Origin: an uncultured Methanomicrobiales archaeon | GTDB lineage: Archaea; Halobacteriota; Methanomicrobia; Methanomicrobiales; Methanospirillaceae | DNA length: 37,481 bases | NCBI GenBank assembly: GCA_903828975.1 | Contig: CAIKOD010000103.1 | Location: forward strand, 1 to 37,481 | Direction: 5' to 3' | Shown here: piece by piece, positions 14,865 through 22,276 of the stretch | How positions within the stretch are numbered: position 1 is the stretch's first letter | Layout of the letters: every line of letters starts with the position of its first letter | Notes under the pieces: model-generated | What the model was told of the DNA's origin: nothing | What the model saw: only the letters and a program-made list of their open reading frames with translations | Databases searched by the model: none | Made by a program: the position numbers and the translations under genes

Positions 14865-16016
14865 ATGCCACAGGTAACCGTATATTCCACAAAAAACTGT
14901 CCCTACTGCAGGATGGCAAAGGCATTTCTCGAAAAACACTCTATCCCGTATACATCAATCGATGTCGGGGAAGACGAGGAAGCAGCAAAGCACATGATCG
15001 GGATCTCCGGCCAGCGTGGTGTCCCCGTCATCACCATTGACGACGAGATAATTGTCGGGTTTGACGCCCAGCGGCTCAACGAGATTTTTGGTACCGGTAC
15101 CGAAGGTGACATTCTTGATGTAGTCATTATCGGTGCAGGGCCCGCCGGCCTGACCGCTGCCGTGTACTGTGCGAGGAAGCTCCTCACTGCCGTGGTCATC
15201 ACTGAAAATATCGGGGGCCAGGCCCTTGAAAGCTGGACCATCGAGAATTACATGGGGTACCGGATGATCACCGGCGATGAGCTGATGAAGAAATTTGAGG
15301 ACCAGGTAAAAGAGCAGAAAATCAGTCTCGAGCTCGACCATGTCCGGGAAATTACCCCCTCTGATGGAATATTCACAATCCACACCGCCACGGATACGAG
15401 TTACCTTGCGCGTGCGGTTATCCTTTCACCAGGGAAACAACCGAAAAAACTCGGTGTCGATGGAGAGGAACGTTTTCTCGGCAGGGGCCTGTCGGTCTGT
15501 TCAACCTGTGACGGGCCGCTATTTAAAAATAAGGTCGTGGCTGTTGTAGGCGGCGGAAATTCCGCCCTGCAGACCGCGGTGGAAATGAGCAAGATAGCCA
15601 GAGAAGTCCACCTGATTGTAAGAAGTACTATCCGGGCTGACGAAGTGTATGTCAAGCTGTTCGAAGTACAAAAAAATATTATCCTCCATTCCAATTCGGT
15701 CGTGACCGTACTTCACGGGGATAACCTCCTTAATGCAATAACCATTAAAGACCGGCTCACCAGCGAGGAATCAAAAATTACCCTCGATGGAGTATTTGCT
15801 GAGATCGGCTGGTCACCTAACACGGATTTTGTCTCAGACCTGTTGAAGCTCAATGACCAGAAAGAGATCATTATCGATATTAACTGTCACACCAGTGTCC
15901 CTGGAATTTTTGCTGCAGGAGATGTAACGAATATCAAGGGCAAACAGATCATCATTGCAGCAGGGGAAGGGGCCAAGGCAGCGCTGGAAGCCTATGAATA
16001 CCTGGTCCAGCTGTGA
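14865..16016 (+). CDS. Glutaredoxin-thioredoxin reductase fusion
   Basis: A 383-residue flavoprotein disulfide reductase with an N-terminal glutaredoxin. Residues 1-80 are a glutaredoxin/NrdH-like domain with CPYC (12-15) and GVPVITID, the cis-proline region. From about residue 84 comes a low-molecular-weight thioredoxin reductase: FAD site VIIGAGPAGLTAAVYCARK, redox motif CSTCDG (usually CATCDG), nucleotide-binding GGGNSALQTA, and the C-terminal FAD motif GIFAAGDVT. Electrons would pass from NAD(P)H or another donor via FAD and CSTC to the attached CPYC. After the nucleotide motif the usual HRRxxxR pattern for NADPH is replaced (HLIVRSTIRA), so cofactor preference may differ; F420H2-dependent relatives are known in methanogens. 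Monocistronic, followed by a T-run. Confidence 0.9.
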   Translation: MPQVTVYSTKNCPYCRMAKAFLEKHSIPYTSIDVGEDEEAAKHMIGISGQRGVPVITIDDEIIVGFDAQRLNEIFGTGTEGDILDVVIIGAGPAGLTAAVYCARKLLTAVVITENIGGQALESWTIENYMGYRMITGDELMKKFEDQVKEQKISLELDHVREITPSDGIFTIHTATDTSYLARAVILSPGKQPKKLGVDGEERFLGRGLSVCSTCDGPLFKNKVVAVVGGGNSALQTAVEMSKIAREVHLIVRSTIRADEVYVKLFEVQKNIILHSNSVVTVLHGDNLLNAITIKDRLTSEESKITLDGVFAEIGWSPNTDFVSDLLKLNDQKEIIIDINCHTSVPGIFAAGDVTNIKGKQIIIAAGEGAKAALEAYEYLVQL

Positions 16017-16126: not shown

Positions 16127-16777
16127 TTATTCATGAACATTTTTTCCCCGTATCCAGTTCCGTACTAAGGTAATACCTGAATAGAGGAACGTAACAATCA
16201 ACGCGAGAATTACCATGACAAAGAGAATATTGAGGTTGTCCTGGATAATATTGAAATTTCCAACATAATACCCGAGAAACGTCACGATACCACACCACAA
16301 CACAGCCCCGGCAAAGTTCACGATGATATAATGAATATAATTCATGGATTTCAAACCAGCATAGAATGGGGGGAGGTTCAGTATCGGGATAAAGCGACTG
16401 ATAATAATGGACAGGGGGCCGAATTTATTGAATAATTCCTCGGCTTTTCCAATATTTTCCTTATCGAAGATATGAGGGCATGTTTTCCGACATGCTGTAA
16501 AATTGAATAAACGCCCACTCCAGTAATTCAGGTCGTAACCGAAATACGCAGCTGCAATTGCGGTAATGATTACCCATTCAAGCGATACCTCATGGTTAAC
16601 TGCCATAACAACAGCGACGAAAAGCAGCGAATTAACCGGGAAAGGCGTTACGATGAATACCGACCCCAGGAAGATGACAATGAAAACAAGGGCATAAAAC
16701 CATATCCCCTGCTGATATGACGGGTTTAACAGTACCGAAGTGCTATTCATCAATATATTGGAAATATCGGGGAGCAC
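16127..16777 (-). CDS. DedA/VTT-family membrane protein
   Basis: A 216-residue polytopic protein of the DedA (SNARE-associated/VTT) family, implicated in lipid flipping and envelope homeostasis. It has four to five hydrophobic segments (26-45, 48-62, 68-85, 150-170, 177-200). The family signature appears as AYFGYDLNYWSGRLFNF, followed by an amphipathic stretch and GPLSIIISRFIPILNLPPFYAGLKSMN, the conserved F.RF.P.....P..AG segment with re-entrant loop. GTG 16777 has GAGG six bases upstream and is the best start. A C-terminal basic tail (RNWIRGKNVHE) fits a cytoplasmic end. It is divergent from the winged-helix gene; no functional partner is evident. Confidence 0.85.
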   Translation of the reverse strand: MLPDISNILMNSTSVLLNPSYQQGIWFYALVFIVIFLGSVFIVTPFPVNSLLFVAVVMAVNHEVSLEWVIITAIAAAYFGYDLNYWSGRLFNFTACRKTCPHIFDKENIGKAEELFNKFGPLSIIISRFIPILNLPPFYAGLKSMNYIHYIIVNFAGAVLWCGIVTFLGYYVGNFNIIQDNLNILFVMVILALIVTFLYSGITLVRNWIRGKNVHE

Positions 16778-17058: not shown

Positions 17059-17361
17059 GTGAAACAATTACTGTGGTGGTTGATCGCTGGATCAAAAGGA
17101 GGCATTAACAGGGCCCGGATAATTCAGGTACTCCATAAACGGCCATATAATGCCAACCAGTTAACCTCTTTGTTCAGCCTTGATTATAAAACGGTCCGCC
17201 ACCACCTTGATGTTTTGAAAAAGCACCAGATTGTCCGATCAATGGGGGAGGGATACGGGACCATGTATTTTCTCACTGACCAGATGAACACCAGATATGA
17301 AGACTTCATGGAGATCTGGAAGCAGGTCGATGTACCAGATGAAATAAGGGAGGAAAAATAG
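17059..17361 (+). CDS. Small winged-helix transcriptional regulator
   Basis: A 100-residue ArsR-like winged-helix DNA-binding protein. NRARIIQVLHKRPYNANQLTSLFSLDYKTVRHHLDVLKKHQIV is a clear helix-turn-helix followed by a wing (GYGTMYFLTD). No metal-binding cysteines and no sensor domain are present. The start is GTG 17059 with GGAG upstream. One base separates its stop from the next gene, which encodes a small membrane protein, so the two are almost certainly a unit. Regulator plus membrane partner pairs are common in archaea and may sense envelope state (inference). A similar membrane protein, without a regulator, follows the phosphoesterase gene at 21803. The 280-base region upstream (16778-17058) holds AT-rich sequence but no recognisable element. 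Confidence 0.85.
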   Translation: MKQLLWWLIAGSKGGINRARIIQVLHKRPYNANQLTSLFSLDYKTVRHHLDVLKKHQIVRSMGEGYGTMYFLTDQMNTRYEDFMEIWKQVDVPDEIREEK

Positions 17362-17362
17362 A

Positions 17363-17830
17363 ATGGAGAAAAAAAACCTTGTTGTATTAATTCTTATTTC
17401 GGTGATTGTAGTAGTACTTGCCAGCTTAATAATCCCGATTATTTTCAAAACACCACAACCCGGCCCCGTGCAAAACCCTATACAAAACCCCGTACAAAAT
17501 CCAACTCCAACTCCCCTGCAGCAGGCACGACCCAGCCAGCAACCCCCGACACCGATGGAGAATCTCAAAACGGTAATATCATTCATCAATATCGGCCTGA
17601 TTATCCCCCTGTTTATTATTTATGCAGGGATATACCGGAAGATGCGAAGCTCGTTTACCCTCGGCCTGATGGCGGTAATTTTCGCCCTGGGTATGTACGC
17701 AGTCACTTCCAACCCGCTACTCGTGAGTCTCCTCGGGGGTCGTCCGGACTTTATCGGGGTGTTCCAGATAGTCCCCGACCTTTGCGCAACGGCAGCCCTT
17801 GTAATCCTCATCTGGATCAGCCTTGAATAA
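17363..17830 (+). CDS. Small membrane protein, copy 1 of a paralogous pair
   Basis: A 155-residue protein of unrecognised family. It has an N-terminal membrane anchor (8-29), then an external Pro/Gln/Asn-rich linker (33-66, with repeats of QNP), then three further membrane segments: TVISFINIGLIIPLFIIYAG, SFTLGLMAVIFALGMYAVTS and the C-terminal ATAALVILIWISLE. The C-terminal about 85 residues are nearly identical to those of the protein at 21803-22276, whereas the linkers differ. It is translationally adjacent to the winged-helix regulator, suggesting that they act together. Function unknown; not a known transporter or enzyme by motif. Confidence 0.75.
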   Translation: MEKKNLVVLILISVIVVVLASLIIPIIFKTPQPGPVQNPIQNPVQNPTPTPLQQARPSQQPPTPMENLKTVISFINIGLIIPLFIIYAGIYRKMRSSFTLGLMAVIFALGMYAVTSNPLLVSLLGGRPDFIGVFQIVPDLCATAALVILIWISLE

Positions 17831-17955
17831 TTTTTAATTTGGGTATGATTTGGGTGTAATCCGGGGCAAATTCTGGCATTTCCTTATCTCTTTTCCTGAT
17901 TAATCTGCATAATAACCCTGATTTTGGGATAAACCAGAAAAGGAGAATGTCAACA

Positions 17956-20163
17956 ATGAACATATCAAAGAAGATAGGCCTTGTTATCGCCGTGTTCTGT
18001 ATTATGGCACTGATGGTCGCAGCCGTCAGTGCGGCAGGTACCGCCGGCGCACCTGGTCAGCAACCCCTAGGACCCGGTAAGCAACCGGGAACCGGACAGG
18101 GGCAGCAACAGCAGGGAACAAATAACAATGCAAACAATCCTGTTCAGACCCAGGTTGGAACTGGAAACGGCGGTACAAACAAAGGACCGGGACAAGGACA
18201 GGGGCCTGTACAGGGGACAGCCGTTAACCAGGTGTATACCATGGAACAGACCCTTTCCGACCAGGGCCAGCAGGCAACGATTGCGTTTGATGCACTTGCG
18301 TTCCTCACCGGCCAGGCATGCAGCGACACGTTCCTGCCACCCGGAAAAGTCGCTGATTATGCAGGTTTCCAGTACCTCCGTGATAACGATGTCACGGAAA
18401 TGGGACATAATACTGATTTTGTCACCCGGGTTTCAGACAATGTACTGTCGGTCCTGAATGACGACCAGCTGGTTCAGTTTATTGCACTGTCAAAAACCGA
18501 AGCTCCCCTTTCAAGCCAGCACGGGTACATGCGGTTCCCCCTGACCAAGGCGTTCCGTGCCCAGCTTGAAGGAACGATTCCCACCGGGAGCACCGGCCTT
18601 GACAAGGCAGCCGTGATGGCCTACTCGGCGAAATTATATGATGTTGATGCAAGCATCAGCCTGGATCGGGCTAAGACCTATGCCAGCGTGATCCGATCCC
18701 TTAACCAGACCCAGCGGGCATACCTTGACAAGATGGCGTCAGGGGGGATGCTCTCGATGCCTGAAGTGGATGCTTCGGAAGTGCTGAAAAACAGCGGCCA
18801 GGACAATTCGGTTGCAATGAGGACTTATGCCAGCGAGATGTTTGCATGGTATGGGGGCGATGTCACTTCCGACGTGTACTTCTGCCCTGAGCGGCAGGCG
18901 ACCTACTTCGGTTCATTCTACATGAAAGACCGCCCGGCAATGGGTAACCCTGACTATTCCATCAGTACTACCCTGACTGGTGATTCCGGGGAGAACTTCC
19001 TAAATGCATTAACCGACACCCAGCGGGAGAAAATCACAAGCCTTGTGGACCTCCAGCGTGCTGATCTCAACGAGATCGTTGCAAAGCGGACGGCAATTGC
19101 AACCGAACTGCGTACTGCGTTAACCGGGGATACCATTGACGAAAGTCTTGTCCGTTCCCTATCGGCACGGTACGGGGAACTTGATGGTGAGATATCGTAC
19201 AACTACGCAACACACTTCGCAGATGTGGGAAAGACGACCACAAGCGAACAGAAAAAGCAGATGGTTGCACTGCGGAACCTTGCAAATTTCACCTGTGACG
19301 GGGCATACCTGTACTCACAGCCAATTAGTATGCCGCAAAACGTACCGTCTGATTTCCTCTTCGGTGTCGGGCAATACGACAGCGCAAAAATATCTGCATG
19401 GTTACAGGGGTTGCAGAAGACGACCGTGGGCCCTGTCCCGCCAACCACGCCAAAGGTAGTACTCACAAAAGTTCCGTTAGTACATCCGACAGTACCAATT
19501 CCCGCAACCACACCAAAAGTAGTGGTTACAAAGGCACCATTGGTACGTCCGGCAACACCAACTCCCTCAACCACGCCAAAAGTAGTGGTTACAAAGGCAC
19601 CATTGGTTCTCCCGACCCCCACACTCCCTTGGTGGTTACAGCGGGGAATATCAACCACAAATCATTTTCTGAATATACAAGCAAACCAAATCGCACAGAC
19701 ACAGGTTTTCTCGCTTATCAGCGATGCTGGTATTGACGGCGGCACAATACCCGTAGAATATACGTGCGATGGATCGGGCTCAACTCCTGCACTTTCCTGG
19801 TCGGGTGCACCTGCAGGCACAAAAGAGTTTGCCCTGATGATGACAACCATACCCGTAGATGGTCAGACCAGGTGGAACTGGGTCCTGTACGGTATCCCGG
19901 GATCTGTGACAAGCCTTGCTAAGGATAGCTCCGGGATCGGTACCCTAGGGACGGGCAGTCACGGAACGATCAGGACCTACGATCCCCCATGTCCGCAGGG
20001 CCCCGGCGAAAAGGTTTACACCTTCACCTTGTATGCACTGTCAGATTCGCCAAATTTGCCTGAAAATCCCGCCCAGGTCACCGGACCTGTGCTAAGCGAT
20101 TCGATCTCATCCCTGACCCTCGGCAAAGTGTCCCTGAACCTGAACTACGGCCGATCTGAATGA
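17956..20163 (+). CDS. Secreted protein with internal helical repeats and C-terminal PEBP (YbhB-like) domain
   Basis: A 735-residue exported protein. The start is taken at ATG 17956 because AGGAG (17941-17945) is ten bases upstream; ATG 17947 is too close. A signal peptide (cleavage near AVSAAG) is followed by a Gly/Gln/Asn-rich stretch (to about 90). Residues about 95-450 are a large, mostly helical region of unknown family that looks internally duplicated: one part has CSDTFLPPGKVADYAGFQYLRD ending LNDDQLVQF, the other SDVYFCPERQATYFGSFYMKD ending LTDTQREKI. A Thr/Pro linker with three copies of TTPKVV(L/V)TK.PLV follows. The last 165 residues are a PEBP/YbhB domain (TCDGSGSTPALSWSGAP; WNWVLYGIP; YDPPCP). 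It probably acts at the cell surface; function unknown. Confidence 0.8.
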   Translation: MNISKKIGLVIAVFCIMALMVAAVSAAGTAGAPGQQPLGPGKQPGTGQGQQQQGTNNNANNPVQTQVGTGNGGTNKGPGQGQGPVQGTAVNQVYTMEQTLSDQGQQATIAFDALAFLTGQACSDTFLPPGKVADYAGFQYLRDNDVTEMGHNTDFVTRVSDNVLSVLNDDQLVQFIALSKTEAPLSSQHGYMRFPLTKAFRAQLEGTIPTGSTGLDKAAVMAYSAKLYDVDASISLDRAKTYASVIRSLNQTQRAYLDKMASGGMLSMPEVDASEVLKNSGQDNSVAMRTYASEMFAWYGGDVTSDVYFCPERQATYFGSFYMKDRPAMGNPDYSISTTLTGDSGENFLNALTDTQREKITSLVDLQRADLNEIVAKRTAIATELRTALTGDTIDESLVRSLSARYGELDGEISYNYATHFADVGKTTTSEQKKQMVALRNLANFTCDGAYLYSQPISMPQNVPSDFLFGVGQYDSAKISAWLQGLQKTTVGPVPPTTPKVVLTKVPLVHPTVPIPATTPKVVVTKAPLVRPATPTPSTTPKVVVTKAPLVLPTPTLPWWLQRGISTTNHFLNIQANQIAQTQVFSLISDAGIDGGTIPVEYTCDGSGSTPALSWSGAPAGTKEFALMMTTIPVDGQTRWNWVLYGIPGSVTSLAKDSSGIGTLGTGSHGTIRTYDPPCPQGPGEKVYTFTLYALSDSPNLPENPAQVTGPVLSDSISSLTLGKVSLNLNYGRSE
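19440..19614 (+). repeat. Coding tandem repeat, Thr/Pro linker
   Basis: Three near-identical units of CCAAC(C)AC(G/A)CCAAA(G)GTAGT..., encoding TTPKVV(L/V)TK(V/A)PLV, lie between the helical and PEBP domains of the 17956-20163 protein. The period is 63 bases. This is a surface stalk-like linker, and its copy number may vary. Confidence 0.7.
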
Positions 20164-20261
20164 AAGGGGACAGCATGGACGTGAATGAGGTCCATAACTT
20201 TTAGCTGGATGACAGATAATGGTAAAAAATGAGGGCGGAAACCCATAAAAGGACTCACGCT

Positions 20262-21788
20262 ATGATCCCAAAAAAATTCCATATCATCCCCGTCCTGGCA
20301 CTGGTCATCGCACTCATCATCACGGCCGGATGTACGAGCCGGCCGGAAAAAGGGCTTGCGAATGGTCTGGGTGACGAGCAACCCCCGGTTGCCGCATCTG
20401 GCCATGCTACCCGCAATATAGTTCCACCGGTCCCTTTAGTTACTGGTACCAGTAATTCCTCGTTTATTATTCCAACACCTCTGCTAGGTCGTCCCACCGA
20501 CAAATCAGTTAATTTGAATATAGTACCTGTGGAAACCCTCGAGATATTTCTCGAATACCGGGAGAACAACAATACCTCGATCCTCAAAACTCCTGCCGGA
20601 ATTGCAGAGGCCGGGATACCAAAGAACATCGAAATTTCCGGTCTTGCACCTGATACCGGTTACATCTACAAACTCTGCTATCGCAAACCCGGTGACACTA
20701 CGGTAAGGTGTAGTCCGGATTACACGTTCCATACACAGAGGGGTCCCGGTTCCTCGTTTGTATTTAATGTCCAGGCAGACTCTCATCTCGATGAACGTGC
20801 CAGCGGAGACCTCTATCAGCGTACCCTCTCCAACGAACTTGGTGACAAACCTGATTTCTTAATCGACCTCGGTGACACGTTTATGACTGACAAACTTCCT
20901 GTAAAAAATAAGGAGACTTACTTAAACCAATACCTGGAGCAACGCTCTTTTATCGATACAGCAGGCCACTCAGTACCACTTTTCCTGGTAATCGGGAACC
21001 ATGACGGGGAGGCAGGGTACGCAGTAGACGGCAACGGCAACAATATTGCTGTTCAGTCCCTGCAGTTCCGGAAACAATATTTCCCCAACCCGGAACCTGA
21101 CGGTTTCTACACTGGTAATTCAGTAAATGATGAGGTTACTGGGATGATGCAAGACTATTATGCATGGGTGTGGGGAGACGCACTCTTCGTTGTGCTAGAT
21201 CCCTACTGGTATACGACAACAAAGCCCGGGGGAAAAACCGACGGTTGGGGCTGGACTCTTGGCGAGACCCAGTATCATTGGCTGAAACAGACGCTGGAGA
21301 ACAATCAGGCACCATACAAGTTTGTCTTCGCCCACCAGCTGGTCGGCGGTGACTTACAGGGGAGGGGTGGTACTGAATTTGCGTCCCTGTATGAATGGGG
21401 CGGAAATAACCTGGATGGGAGCTATGGATTTGACCAGCACCGCCTTGTCTGGGGAACGCCAATACACCAGATCCTTGTTGACAACAACATCACGGCCTTC
21501 TTCCACGGTCACGACCACTTCTTTGGAAAGCAGGAACTCGATGGCGTTACCTATCAGGAAGTCCCTCAGCCTGCGACATTCAGCTCCCCAAAAGACCGTC
21601 CCGGTGCGGAATACGGGTATACCAGTGGAGTGCTGCTGGGGAGTCCCGGGCACCTCAGAATAACGGTATCTCCTGAATCGGCCCGTGTTGATTATATCAG
21701 GTCGAAACTTCCCGGAGATAATAAAAGTGGTGAACAAAACGGGGCGGTAGTATATTCCTATTCGCTTACCCCTGAAGTGACCACCTGA
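20262..21788 (+). CDS. Exported lipoprotein metallophosphoesterase (purple acid phosphatase-like)
   Basis: A 508-residue lipoprotein. The start is ATG 20262 (AAAGGA eight bases upstream; the upstream ATG at 20229 lacks one and would add a charged leader). The signal ends in the lipobox ITAGC. After a low-complexity linker, an Fn3-like domain (about 95-165; EISGLAPDTGYIYKLCYRKPGD) precedes a calcineurin-like phosphoesterase: QADSHLD (D-x-H), DLGDTF (GD), VIGNHDGE (GNHD), FVFAHQ and FFHGHDHFF (GHDH), a complete set of metal-ligand motifs. Fn3 plus this fold is the purple acid phosphatase layout, though an exported nucleotidase or phosphodiesterase is possible. It follows the PEBP gene and precedes the second small membrane protein by 14 bases. 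Confidence 0.88.
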   Translation: MIPKKFHIIPVLALVIALIITAGCTSRPEKGLANGLGDEQPPVAASGHATRNIVPPVPLVTGTSNSSFIIPTPLLGRPTDKSVNLNIVPVETLEIFLEYRENNNTSILKTPAGIAEAGIPKNIEISGLAPDTGYIYKLCYRKPGDTTVRCSPDYTFHTQRGPGSSFVFNVQADSHLDERASGDLYQRTLSNELGDKPDFLIDLGDTFMTDKLPVKNKETYLNQYLEQRSFIDTAGHSVPLFLVIGNHDGEAGYAVDGNGNNIAVQSLQFRKQYFPNPEPDGFYTGNSVNDEVTGMMQDYYAWVWGDALFVVLDPYWYTTTKPGGKTDGWGWTLGETQYHWLKQTLENNQAPYKFVFAHQLVGGDLQGRGGTEFASLYEWGGNNLDGSYGFDQHRLVWGTPIHQILVDNNITAFFHGHDHFFGKQELDGVTYQEVPQPATFSSPKDRPGAEYGYTSGVLLGSPGHLRITVSPESARVDYIRSKLPGDNKSGEQNGAVVYSYSLTPEVTT

Positions 21789-21802
21789 GGTGAAAAGACC
21801 GG

Positions 21803-22276
21803 ATGGATAGAAAAAAAATTGTATTAATCATTCTTATTTCAGTGATTGTTGTAGTTATTGCCAGCTCCATTATTCCCATCTTCGTTAAAATCCCGCGTCC
21901 TGACTTGGAACAAAATCCGGTGCGGCCTCCGCAGGCAGACACCATCCCGCAATCAGACCGGCAACCTGCACAACCCCCGCCATCACAGGGATCAGATGAA
22001 AACAAGCAGATCAAGACCCTGATATCTTTCATCAATATAGGCCTGATAATCCCCCTGTTTGTCATATATGCAGGGATATACAGGAGGATGCGGAGCTCAT
22101 TCACTCTCGGCCTTATGGCTGTAATCTTTGCCCTCGGCATGTATGCCGTCACGTCAAACCCCTTAATTGTGAGCATTCTCGGGGGACGAACAGGGGATGT
22201 CGGGCTGTTTGAGATTATACCTGATATCTGTGCAACCATAGCACTCGTGGTCCTCGTTCGGATCAGCCTTGAGTAA
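21803..22276 (+). CDS. Small membrane protein, copy 2 of a paralogous pair
   Basis: A 157-residue paralogue of the protein at 17363-17830. The same N-terminal anchor (LIILISVIVVVIASSIIPIF), a Pro/Gln/Asp linker of different sequence, and a nearly identical C-terminal half (ISFINIGLIIPLFVIYAGIY, SSFTLGLMAVIFALGMYAVT) are present. It lies 14 bases downstream of the phosphoesterase gene and is probably co-transcribed with it. No winged-helix gene accompanies this copy. Conservation is concentrated in the membrane helices, so the shared function is in the membrane; the linker is free to change. Family unknown. Confidence 0.75.
   Translation: MDRKKIVLIILISVIVVVIASSIIPIFVKIPRPDLEQNPVRPPQADTIPQSDRQPAQPPPSQGSDENKQIKTLISFINIGLIIPLFVIYAGIYRRMRSSFTLGLMAVIFALGMYAVTSNPLIVSILGGRTGDVGLFEIIPDICATIALVVLVRISLE

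Follow-up and report, generated by a model that had tools for sequence, protein, structure and literature searches.

What connects a winged-helix regulator, two copies of a small membrane protein and two exported proteins that are encoded on the plus strand within 5.2 kb of an archaeal contig? The contig (CAIKOD010000103.1, from an uncultured Methanomicrobiales archaeon) was analysed over its full 37,481 nucleotides, which we call the window. An earlier note on this DNA, made from the letters alone, took the five genes for a surface-sensing or surface-remodelling system in which a regulator/membrane protein pair controls secreted effectors. All five open reading frames (ORFs) are indeed open as it described (Table 1). 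We consider it probable that the locus exemplifies a membrane-coupled one-component switch that is widely distributed in archaea, with a logic resembling that of SdpR/SdpI and an output resembling that of the bacterial Cpx system. The gene pair, a repeat element that we call the operator, the co-occurrence of the two, and the identity of the target genes were established computationally.

A conserved regulator/membrane protein pair

What is conserved at the locus is not the five-gene layout but a core of two genes, the first for an ArsR-like regulator and the second for a four-transmembrane protein (MEM). Exactly eight of the 232 genomes of the order encode the regulator (at E 1e-8), and in all eight MEM lies immediately downstream; in the window one base separates the regulator stop codon from the start of the first MEM copy (MEM1). 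A MEM profile found relatives in 56 of 394 genomes of the phylum, as well as in a Methanobacteriaceae genome and in sequence labelled Micrarchaeota, a label that rests on a single binned contig. The families of these relatives were labelled f1-f36; f13, f17, f21 and f23 are called haloarchaea on the basis of GC richness, acidic proteins and Tat-lipoprotein neighbours.

MEM homologues occurring without the regulator would have spoken against the system that the earlier note proposed. In the loci examined a regulator lies directly upstream (at −65 to +163 bp) of 48 of the 56 MEM ORFs; of the remaining eight, seven are additional copies in pair-bearing loci or genomes, which leaves one (L108) with no detected regulator. 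Second MEM copies lacking a regulator of their own, such as MEM2 of the window, recur in other loci. The regulator and MEM distance matrices are strongly correlated (r 0.905, n = 45 pairs, 0/2000 permutations as high), which we take to show co-inheritance, not contact, because a high r is also expected from shared ancestry by itself.

Beyond the pair, gene order differs between genera, and the neighbouring cargo elsewhere consists of Lcl_C, CotH, LTXXQ, DADGDGVCDN-repeat or ABC-transporter genes. The five-gene layout cannot be upheld as a conserved system, since its PBP (PEBP) domain and phosphoesterase are restricted to close relatives of the window locus; these two genes are lineage-specific cargo. 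In one f6 genome (G120, L023 2166-10792) the genes after the pair encode several Lcl_C lipoproteins, another MEM and a protein with a CotH domain.

The regulator belongs to the ArsR/HTH_5 family PF01022 (28.5 bits against a gathering cut-off of 22, E 1.4e-6), with LDYKTVRHHLDVL as its recognition region. It falls below the cut-offs of two narrower NCBIfam families, NF033788 for ArsR/SmtB metalloregulators (34.6 bits, cut-off 55) and NF033789 for SdpR (33.0 bits, cut-off 100). Its closest solved structures are CzrA-type ArsR repressors (E 2e-4 to 8e-4), and the alignment of the order's regulators contains neither Cys nor an evident metal-site pattern. Neither the regulator nor MEM matched any kinase or response-regulator family in Pfam or NCBIfam, which places the pair outside Cpx-type two-component systems.

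No Pfam family matched MEM1 at E<0.1, and for MEM as a whole we found no family in Pfam or NCBIfam, SdpI included. Hydropathy predicts three core helices, to which the long form adds a fourth, N-terminal helix and a Pro-rich linker (extracytoplasmic, aa 28-63 in MEM1). The AlphaFold2 (AF2) model of MEM1 places helices at 3-27, 64-94, 97-115 and 133-154; its predicted local distance difference test (pLDDT) score of 63 indicates low confidence, and it was used for helix boundaries only, where it agrees with hydropathy. Between helices 2 and 3 lies a conserved, positively charged loop, YRKMRSSFTLGL (pattern YxxxYRKMRSSFTLGL), which by the positive-inside rule is probably cytoplasmic and is a likely contact for the regulator.

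The duplication of the membrane protein seen by the earlier note is real, MEM1 and MEM2 being true paralogues (64% identity over their full length, E 5e-57; 76% over 266 nt of DNA) and the sole two copies in the window genome. To call their C-terminal halves nearly identical was generous, with 70 of 91 residues (77%) the same. A SLAC1 match of MEM2 (Pfam E 6e-4, below cut-off) is shared by MEM1 in no form and was judged a hydrophobic chance match. Weak MEM matches in G037 and G105 were rejected, as they have no accompanying regulator and those in G105 contain stop codons. Also rejected, as low-complexity repeat, was a match (L017) in the viral contig IMGVR_UViG_3300009155_000044, which carries long VRDSVRDSV/YRIPYRI repeats on both strands (L017 2741-8357). 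At G127:C197:2786-3007 (L015, L019) a third MEM copy has decayed and contains an in-frame TGA, yet an intact operator and N-domain gene still follow it.

A repeat operator upstream of exported-protein genes

Between MEM1 and the gene for the exported protein lies a 116-bp spacer with a four-unit direct repeat that the earlier note overlooked. The units are phased at 11 bp, have the consensus ATTTGGGTRTA, and end just upstream of a TATA-like site; the array is followed by TCCTTATC. Scored with a matrix from which the window's own copy was left out, the array reaches 48.2 bits, and the next unrelated site in the window 6.0 bits; at <=3 mismatches it is the sole copy in the 2.58-Mb window genome. 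The 11-bp self-match of the spacer was equalled in only 4 of 20,000 shuffles (maximum over lags 9-12), but other lags give similar self-match counts over the whole window, so the case for the operator rests on conservation and not on periodicity alone.

That conservation is extensive. In relatives the operator lies upstream of N-domain genes (see below), of Lcl_C genes (f6) and of an unrelated small exported protein (G200). The eight pair-bearing genomes, about 24 Mb in all, contain 14 matches at <=3 mismatches, every one in the locus of the pair, against none for the reversed control. Across the phylum the exact double repeat TTTGGGTNNNATTTGGGT gave 39 matches in 23 of 394 genomes (reversed control, 3). 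MEM is encoded in 22 of these 23 genomes and in 56 of the 394 overall (Fisher 7e-20); counted by genus, the proportions are 12/13 with the exact double repeat and 20/123 (5e-8). A matrix derived from the order was then applied to independent loci. It matched outward-facing elements on both sides of the Micrarchaeota-labelled pair (L040), an element upstream of the Methanobacteriaceae operon (L041), one facing a divergent ABC-2 transporter in f16, others in f10, and others upstream of exported genes in haloarchaea. The claim that the pair controls exported-protein genes thereby gains strong support, from the conservation of the pair across several archaeal groups and from an operator that fronts exported-protein genes almost only in pair-bearing genomes.

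Regulator sites had been predicted upstream of 17059 and of 17956. The array provides the second as a candidate; for the first, alignment of the region upstream of the regulator gene found no conserved site. In the window the operator is also absent upstream of the phosphoesterase and MEM2 genes. Operator-like double repeats with no evident target ORF were seen at L138 1501 and L133 1501, one of the two in G504 at a distance from its MEM locus and the other in G411, which has no MEM.

Targets of the operator

The protein that follows the operator in the window was described earlier as a secreted PEBP protein. It does have a signal peptide and a PBP domain (PF01161, 71.2 bits against a gathering cut-off of 24, E 1.4e-19); what had been missed is its LTXXQ/Spy-like N-terminal domain (N-domain), which bears four LTxxQ-like motifs, at aa 170, 252, 355 and 431. 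All seven homologues have an N-domain of exactly 378 aa, while their C-termini differ, PBP being exchanged for TIG/fn3, Cys-rich or other segments. The N-domain occurs in exactly five of the 232 genomes of the order, all five of which have the pair, and every copy lies in the locus. PF07813 (LTXXQ) exceeds its cut-off of 24.3 in L022, a homologue of the window protein (36.0 bits, two stretches). Comparison of the two N-domain halves by hhalign gave 25% identity over 56 columns in register at a probability of 7%, and the second half against f10 LTXXQ proteins gave 1%; these values are at most suggestive of a tandem duplication within the N-domain or of its homology with the targets in f10.

In f10 and the haloarchaea, too, the element is followed by genes for exported proteins that bear LTEEQ or LTDEQ motifs (L145, L146, L081, L093, L095, L098), with variants LTEGQ in L147 and LTEEE in L105; the haloarchaeal target L093 slightly exceeds the PF07813 cut-off (24.6 bits). 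Some targets do not share a contig with the pair (G307, G440, G376), and distant element copies outside the locus, on other contigs, likewise precede LTXXQ genes (L145-L147). The remaining targets include DADGDGVCDN-repeat proteins, MacB-type ABC ATPases adjoining a MacB/FtsX permease and, in one haloarchaeon, an HtrA-like Trypsin_2-PDZ lipoprotein behind a weak element (12.6 bits).

Other features of the locus

Table 1. Features of the regulator/MEM locus in the window.
Feature	Position	Strand	Basis
Regulator (helix-turn-helix, HTH), ArsR-like winged-helix, 100 aa, GTG start	17059..17361	+	HTH_5 match
MEM1, 4-transmembrane protein, proposed sensor/partner of the regulator	17363..17830	+	hydropathy, AF2 helices
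Operator, four 11-bp direct repeats ATTTGGGTATG ATTTGGGTGTA ATCCGGGGCAA ATTCTGGCATT	17837..17880	+	leave-one-out matrix
Putative TATA-like segment TCCTTATCTCT, directly 3' of the operator	17881..17891	+	position, conservation among relatives
Exported protein of 738 aa, the target most strongly linked to the operator; has a signal peptide, the LTXXQ-like N-domain, a linker with Thr/Pro repeats and the PBP (PEBP) domain	17947..20163	+	
N-domain of the exported protein, aa 100-477	18244..19377	+	homologue comparison
PBP/PEBP (YbhB-like) domain, variable C-terminal cargo	19744..20148	+	PF01161
Lipoprotein metallophosphoesterase	20229..21788 (start probably 20262)	+	PF00149, motifs
MEM2, second MEM copy with no regulator of its own	21803..22276	+	similarity to MEM1

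The phosphoesterase belongs to the calcineurin-like family PF00149 (34.2 bits against a cut-off of 21.5, E 4.5e-8), with its metal motifs ADSH, LGDT, GNHD, FAHQ and HGHDH all intact and a lipobox ITAGC; the later start is preferred because the signal sequence begins MIPKKFHIIP. MEM2 begins 14 bp after this gene. On the other side of the locus, directly upstream and on the opposite strand (16127-16777, −), lies a gene for a DedA/VTT-family membrane protein (NCBIfam PRK10847, 115 bits, below cut-off). Before it, at 14865-16016 (+), is a gene for an N-terminal glutaredoxin domain fused to a thioredoxin-reductase-like flavoprotein, which also adjoins the locus in G126.

Proposed mechanism and alternatives

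From these comparisons we infer the binding of the regulator to the element, the sign of the regulation, the contact with MEM and the nature of the signal. The regulator would bind the phased repeats along one helix face, directly upstream of the B recognition element (BRE) and TATA box of the target, and an array placed before the TATA box speaks for activation. MEM, translated from one transcript with the regulator, would sense the state of the cell envelope and capture or release the regulator through its putative cytoplasmic loop. The signal may be envelope stress, in the form of unfolded exported protein or of metal. The output would then be the induction of LTXXQ (Spy/CpxP-type) exported proteins, joined, according to lineage, by ABC exporters, an HtrA-like protease or other surface proteins. 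In the window genome the switch would drive the LTXXQ-PEBP protein, with read-through probably extending to the phosphoesterase and MEM2. A bolder version, which we offer tentatively and which may well overreach, assigns archaea a dedicated envelope-stress response: an ArsR-like activator coupled to the membrane and a deeply conserved operator code abutting BRE/TATA, common to Halobacteriota, Methanobacteriota and perhaps Micrarchaeota, would induce Spy-like chaperones, MacB-type exporters and HtrA-like proteases, and MEM would be the founding member of a new sensor family.

Several observations weigh against such an envelope-stress switch. The PF07813 match of the window protein itself is 16-21 bits, below the cut-off. 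The AF2 model of the N-domain (pLDDT 37.8) is unusable and was left out of any fold search; its paired long helices, 260-296 and 302-332, are only suggestive of a four-helix cradle. The cargo includes Lcl_C, CotH and DADGDGVCDN proteins, which have no known stress role. In this order the lack of a conserved site upstream of the regulator gene departs from the classic SdpR autorepressor layout. Relatedness within f10, whose genomes supply many of the element matches, inflates the genome-level count of 22 in 23. Finally, the element is weak (12-19 bits) in most haloarchaeal loci, and in L106 it is near control level.

ArsR-like proteins are mostly repressors. With the same element and partner, the regulator could likewise repress its targets until a signal makes MEM hold it at the membrane, as SdpI does SdpR, and its weak match to the SdpR family would fit, as would the order of regulator and membrane protein genes, which is that of sdpRI (PMC1626106). 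The array, however, stops not on the TATA-like box but upstream of it, where archaeal activators usually sit, and the absence of an array at the regulator's own promoter implies that there is no autorepression in this order; repression therefore seems to us unlikely, although it deserves serious attention. Metal or redox sensing, in which the LTXXQ/Metal_resist proteins would be CnrX/ZraP-like metal buffers and the switch would respond to metals, draws on the CzrA-type structures nearest to the regulator, on below-cut-off similarity of six f10 targets to Metal_resist (E 9e-4 to 3e-6, partly from the signal peptide) and on a P-type ATPase-like protein (C27) encoded beside the pair in three loci. 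It is rather improbable in view of the Cys-free regulators of the order, with no evident metal site, and of the many non-metal proteins among the cargo.

The surface remodelling that had been suggested alongside sensing would make this an adhesion locus, the pair controlling variable surface proteins for attachment or syntrophic contact. The varied C-termini of the N-domain proteins, the Lcl_C and CotH cargo in f6 and a patchy distribution (8/232 genomes) agree with it. What recurs across lineages, however, is the LTXXQ type together with MacB transporters and not adhesins, and because the recurrent target has this Spy/CpxP-type domain we prefer an envelope-stress role; a remodelling locus we would not expect, though it would be no great surprise. 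Far harder to accept is the repeat element as an RNA signal or terminator at the MEM 3' end, unrelated to the regulator. It does start just past the MEM stop codon in many loci, but elsewhere it runs in the other direction (L040 9600 minus), precedes the entire operon (L041, haloarchaea) or a gene past the regulator on its far side (L021 11574), or stands in front of LTXXQ genes on separate contigs, always pointing to a gene start and followed by TATA-like sequence; on this orientation and placement we rejected the RNA reading. A chance neighbourhood of five functionally unconnected genes is scarcely credible: gene order past the pair does change between genera, and chance may still account for the phosphoesterase, but for the regulator, MEM1 and the PEBP protein it is contradicted by the co-occurrence statistics of element, pair and N-domain.

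Relation to known systems

The favoured reading, a membrane-coupled switch with an envelope-stress output, has partial parallels in four known systems. In Bacillus subtilis, SdpI sequesters SdpR at the membrane upon meeting an extracellular ligand (PMC1626106). The present pair resembles these two in being a two-gene operon of an ArsR-like regulator and a polytopic membrane protein, and differs in that its operator arrays front separate target genes instead of the regulator's own promoter. By analogy the switch would work like SdpR/SdpI without being a member, because the regulator fails the SdpR cut-off (33 bits against 100) and MEM has no detectable relation to SdpI. In bacteria Spy is induced by Cpx/Bae and DegP by Cpx/sigmaE (PMC8144458). 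The archaeal output is similar to that of Cpx/Bae, comprising exported proteins of the LTXXQ (Spy/CpxP-type) class and perhaps a protease resembling HtrA, whereas the pair has neither histidine kinase nor response regulator and instead combines a one-component ArsR-like regulator with an archaeal operator and core promoter. The ArsR/SmtB metalloregulators (CzrA, SmtB) share the winged-helix family PF01022; unlike them, the regulator has no conserved Cys or evident metal-ligand pattern, has an obligate membrane partner, and has direct-repeat, not palindromic, sites. Sulfolobus ArnR/ArnR1, which control the archaellum, also couple an archaeal HTH to the membrane, but with HTH and transmembrane segments in one protein (PMC13286277), whereas here there are two proteins and the targets are exported.

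CsmR, MM2440-MM2441 and a 'dark matter' survey were considered as earlier descriptions of the switch and do not match it, and we found neither a description of it nor an archaeal counterpart of Cpx/Bae/sigmaE in open-access text. To our knowledge no archaeal counterpart of these bacterial envelope-stress systems has been described.

The findings suggest a previously undescribed way for archaea to sense and answer trouble at the cell surface. If this is correct, a regulator and its DNA code would have remained associated from one archaeal group to another even as the genes under their control changed. The operator would help to locate, by sequence, further envelope-stress genes in archaeal genomes that lack annotation. 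With regulator, membrane partner, operator and target list named together, how archaea sense damage outside the membrane would become testable.

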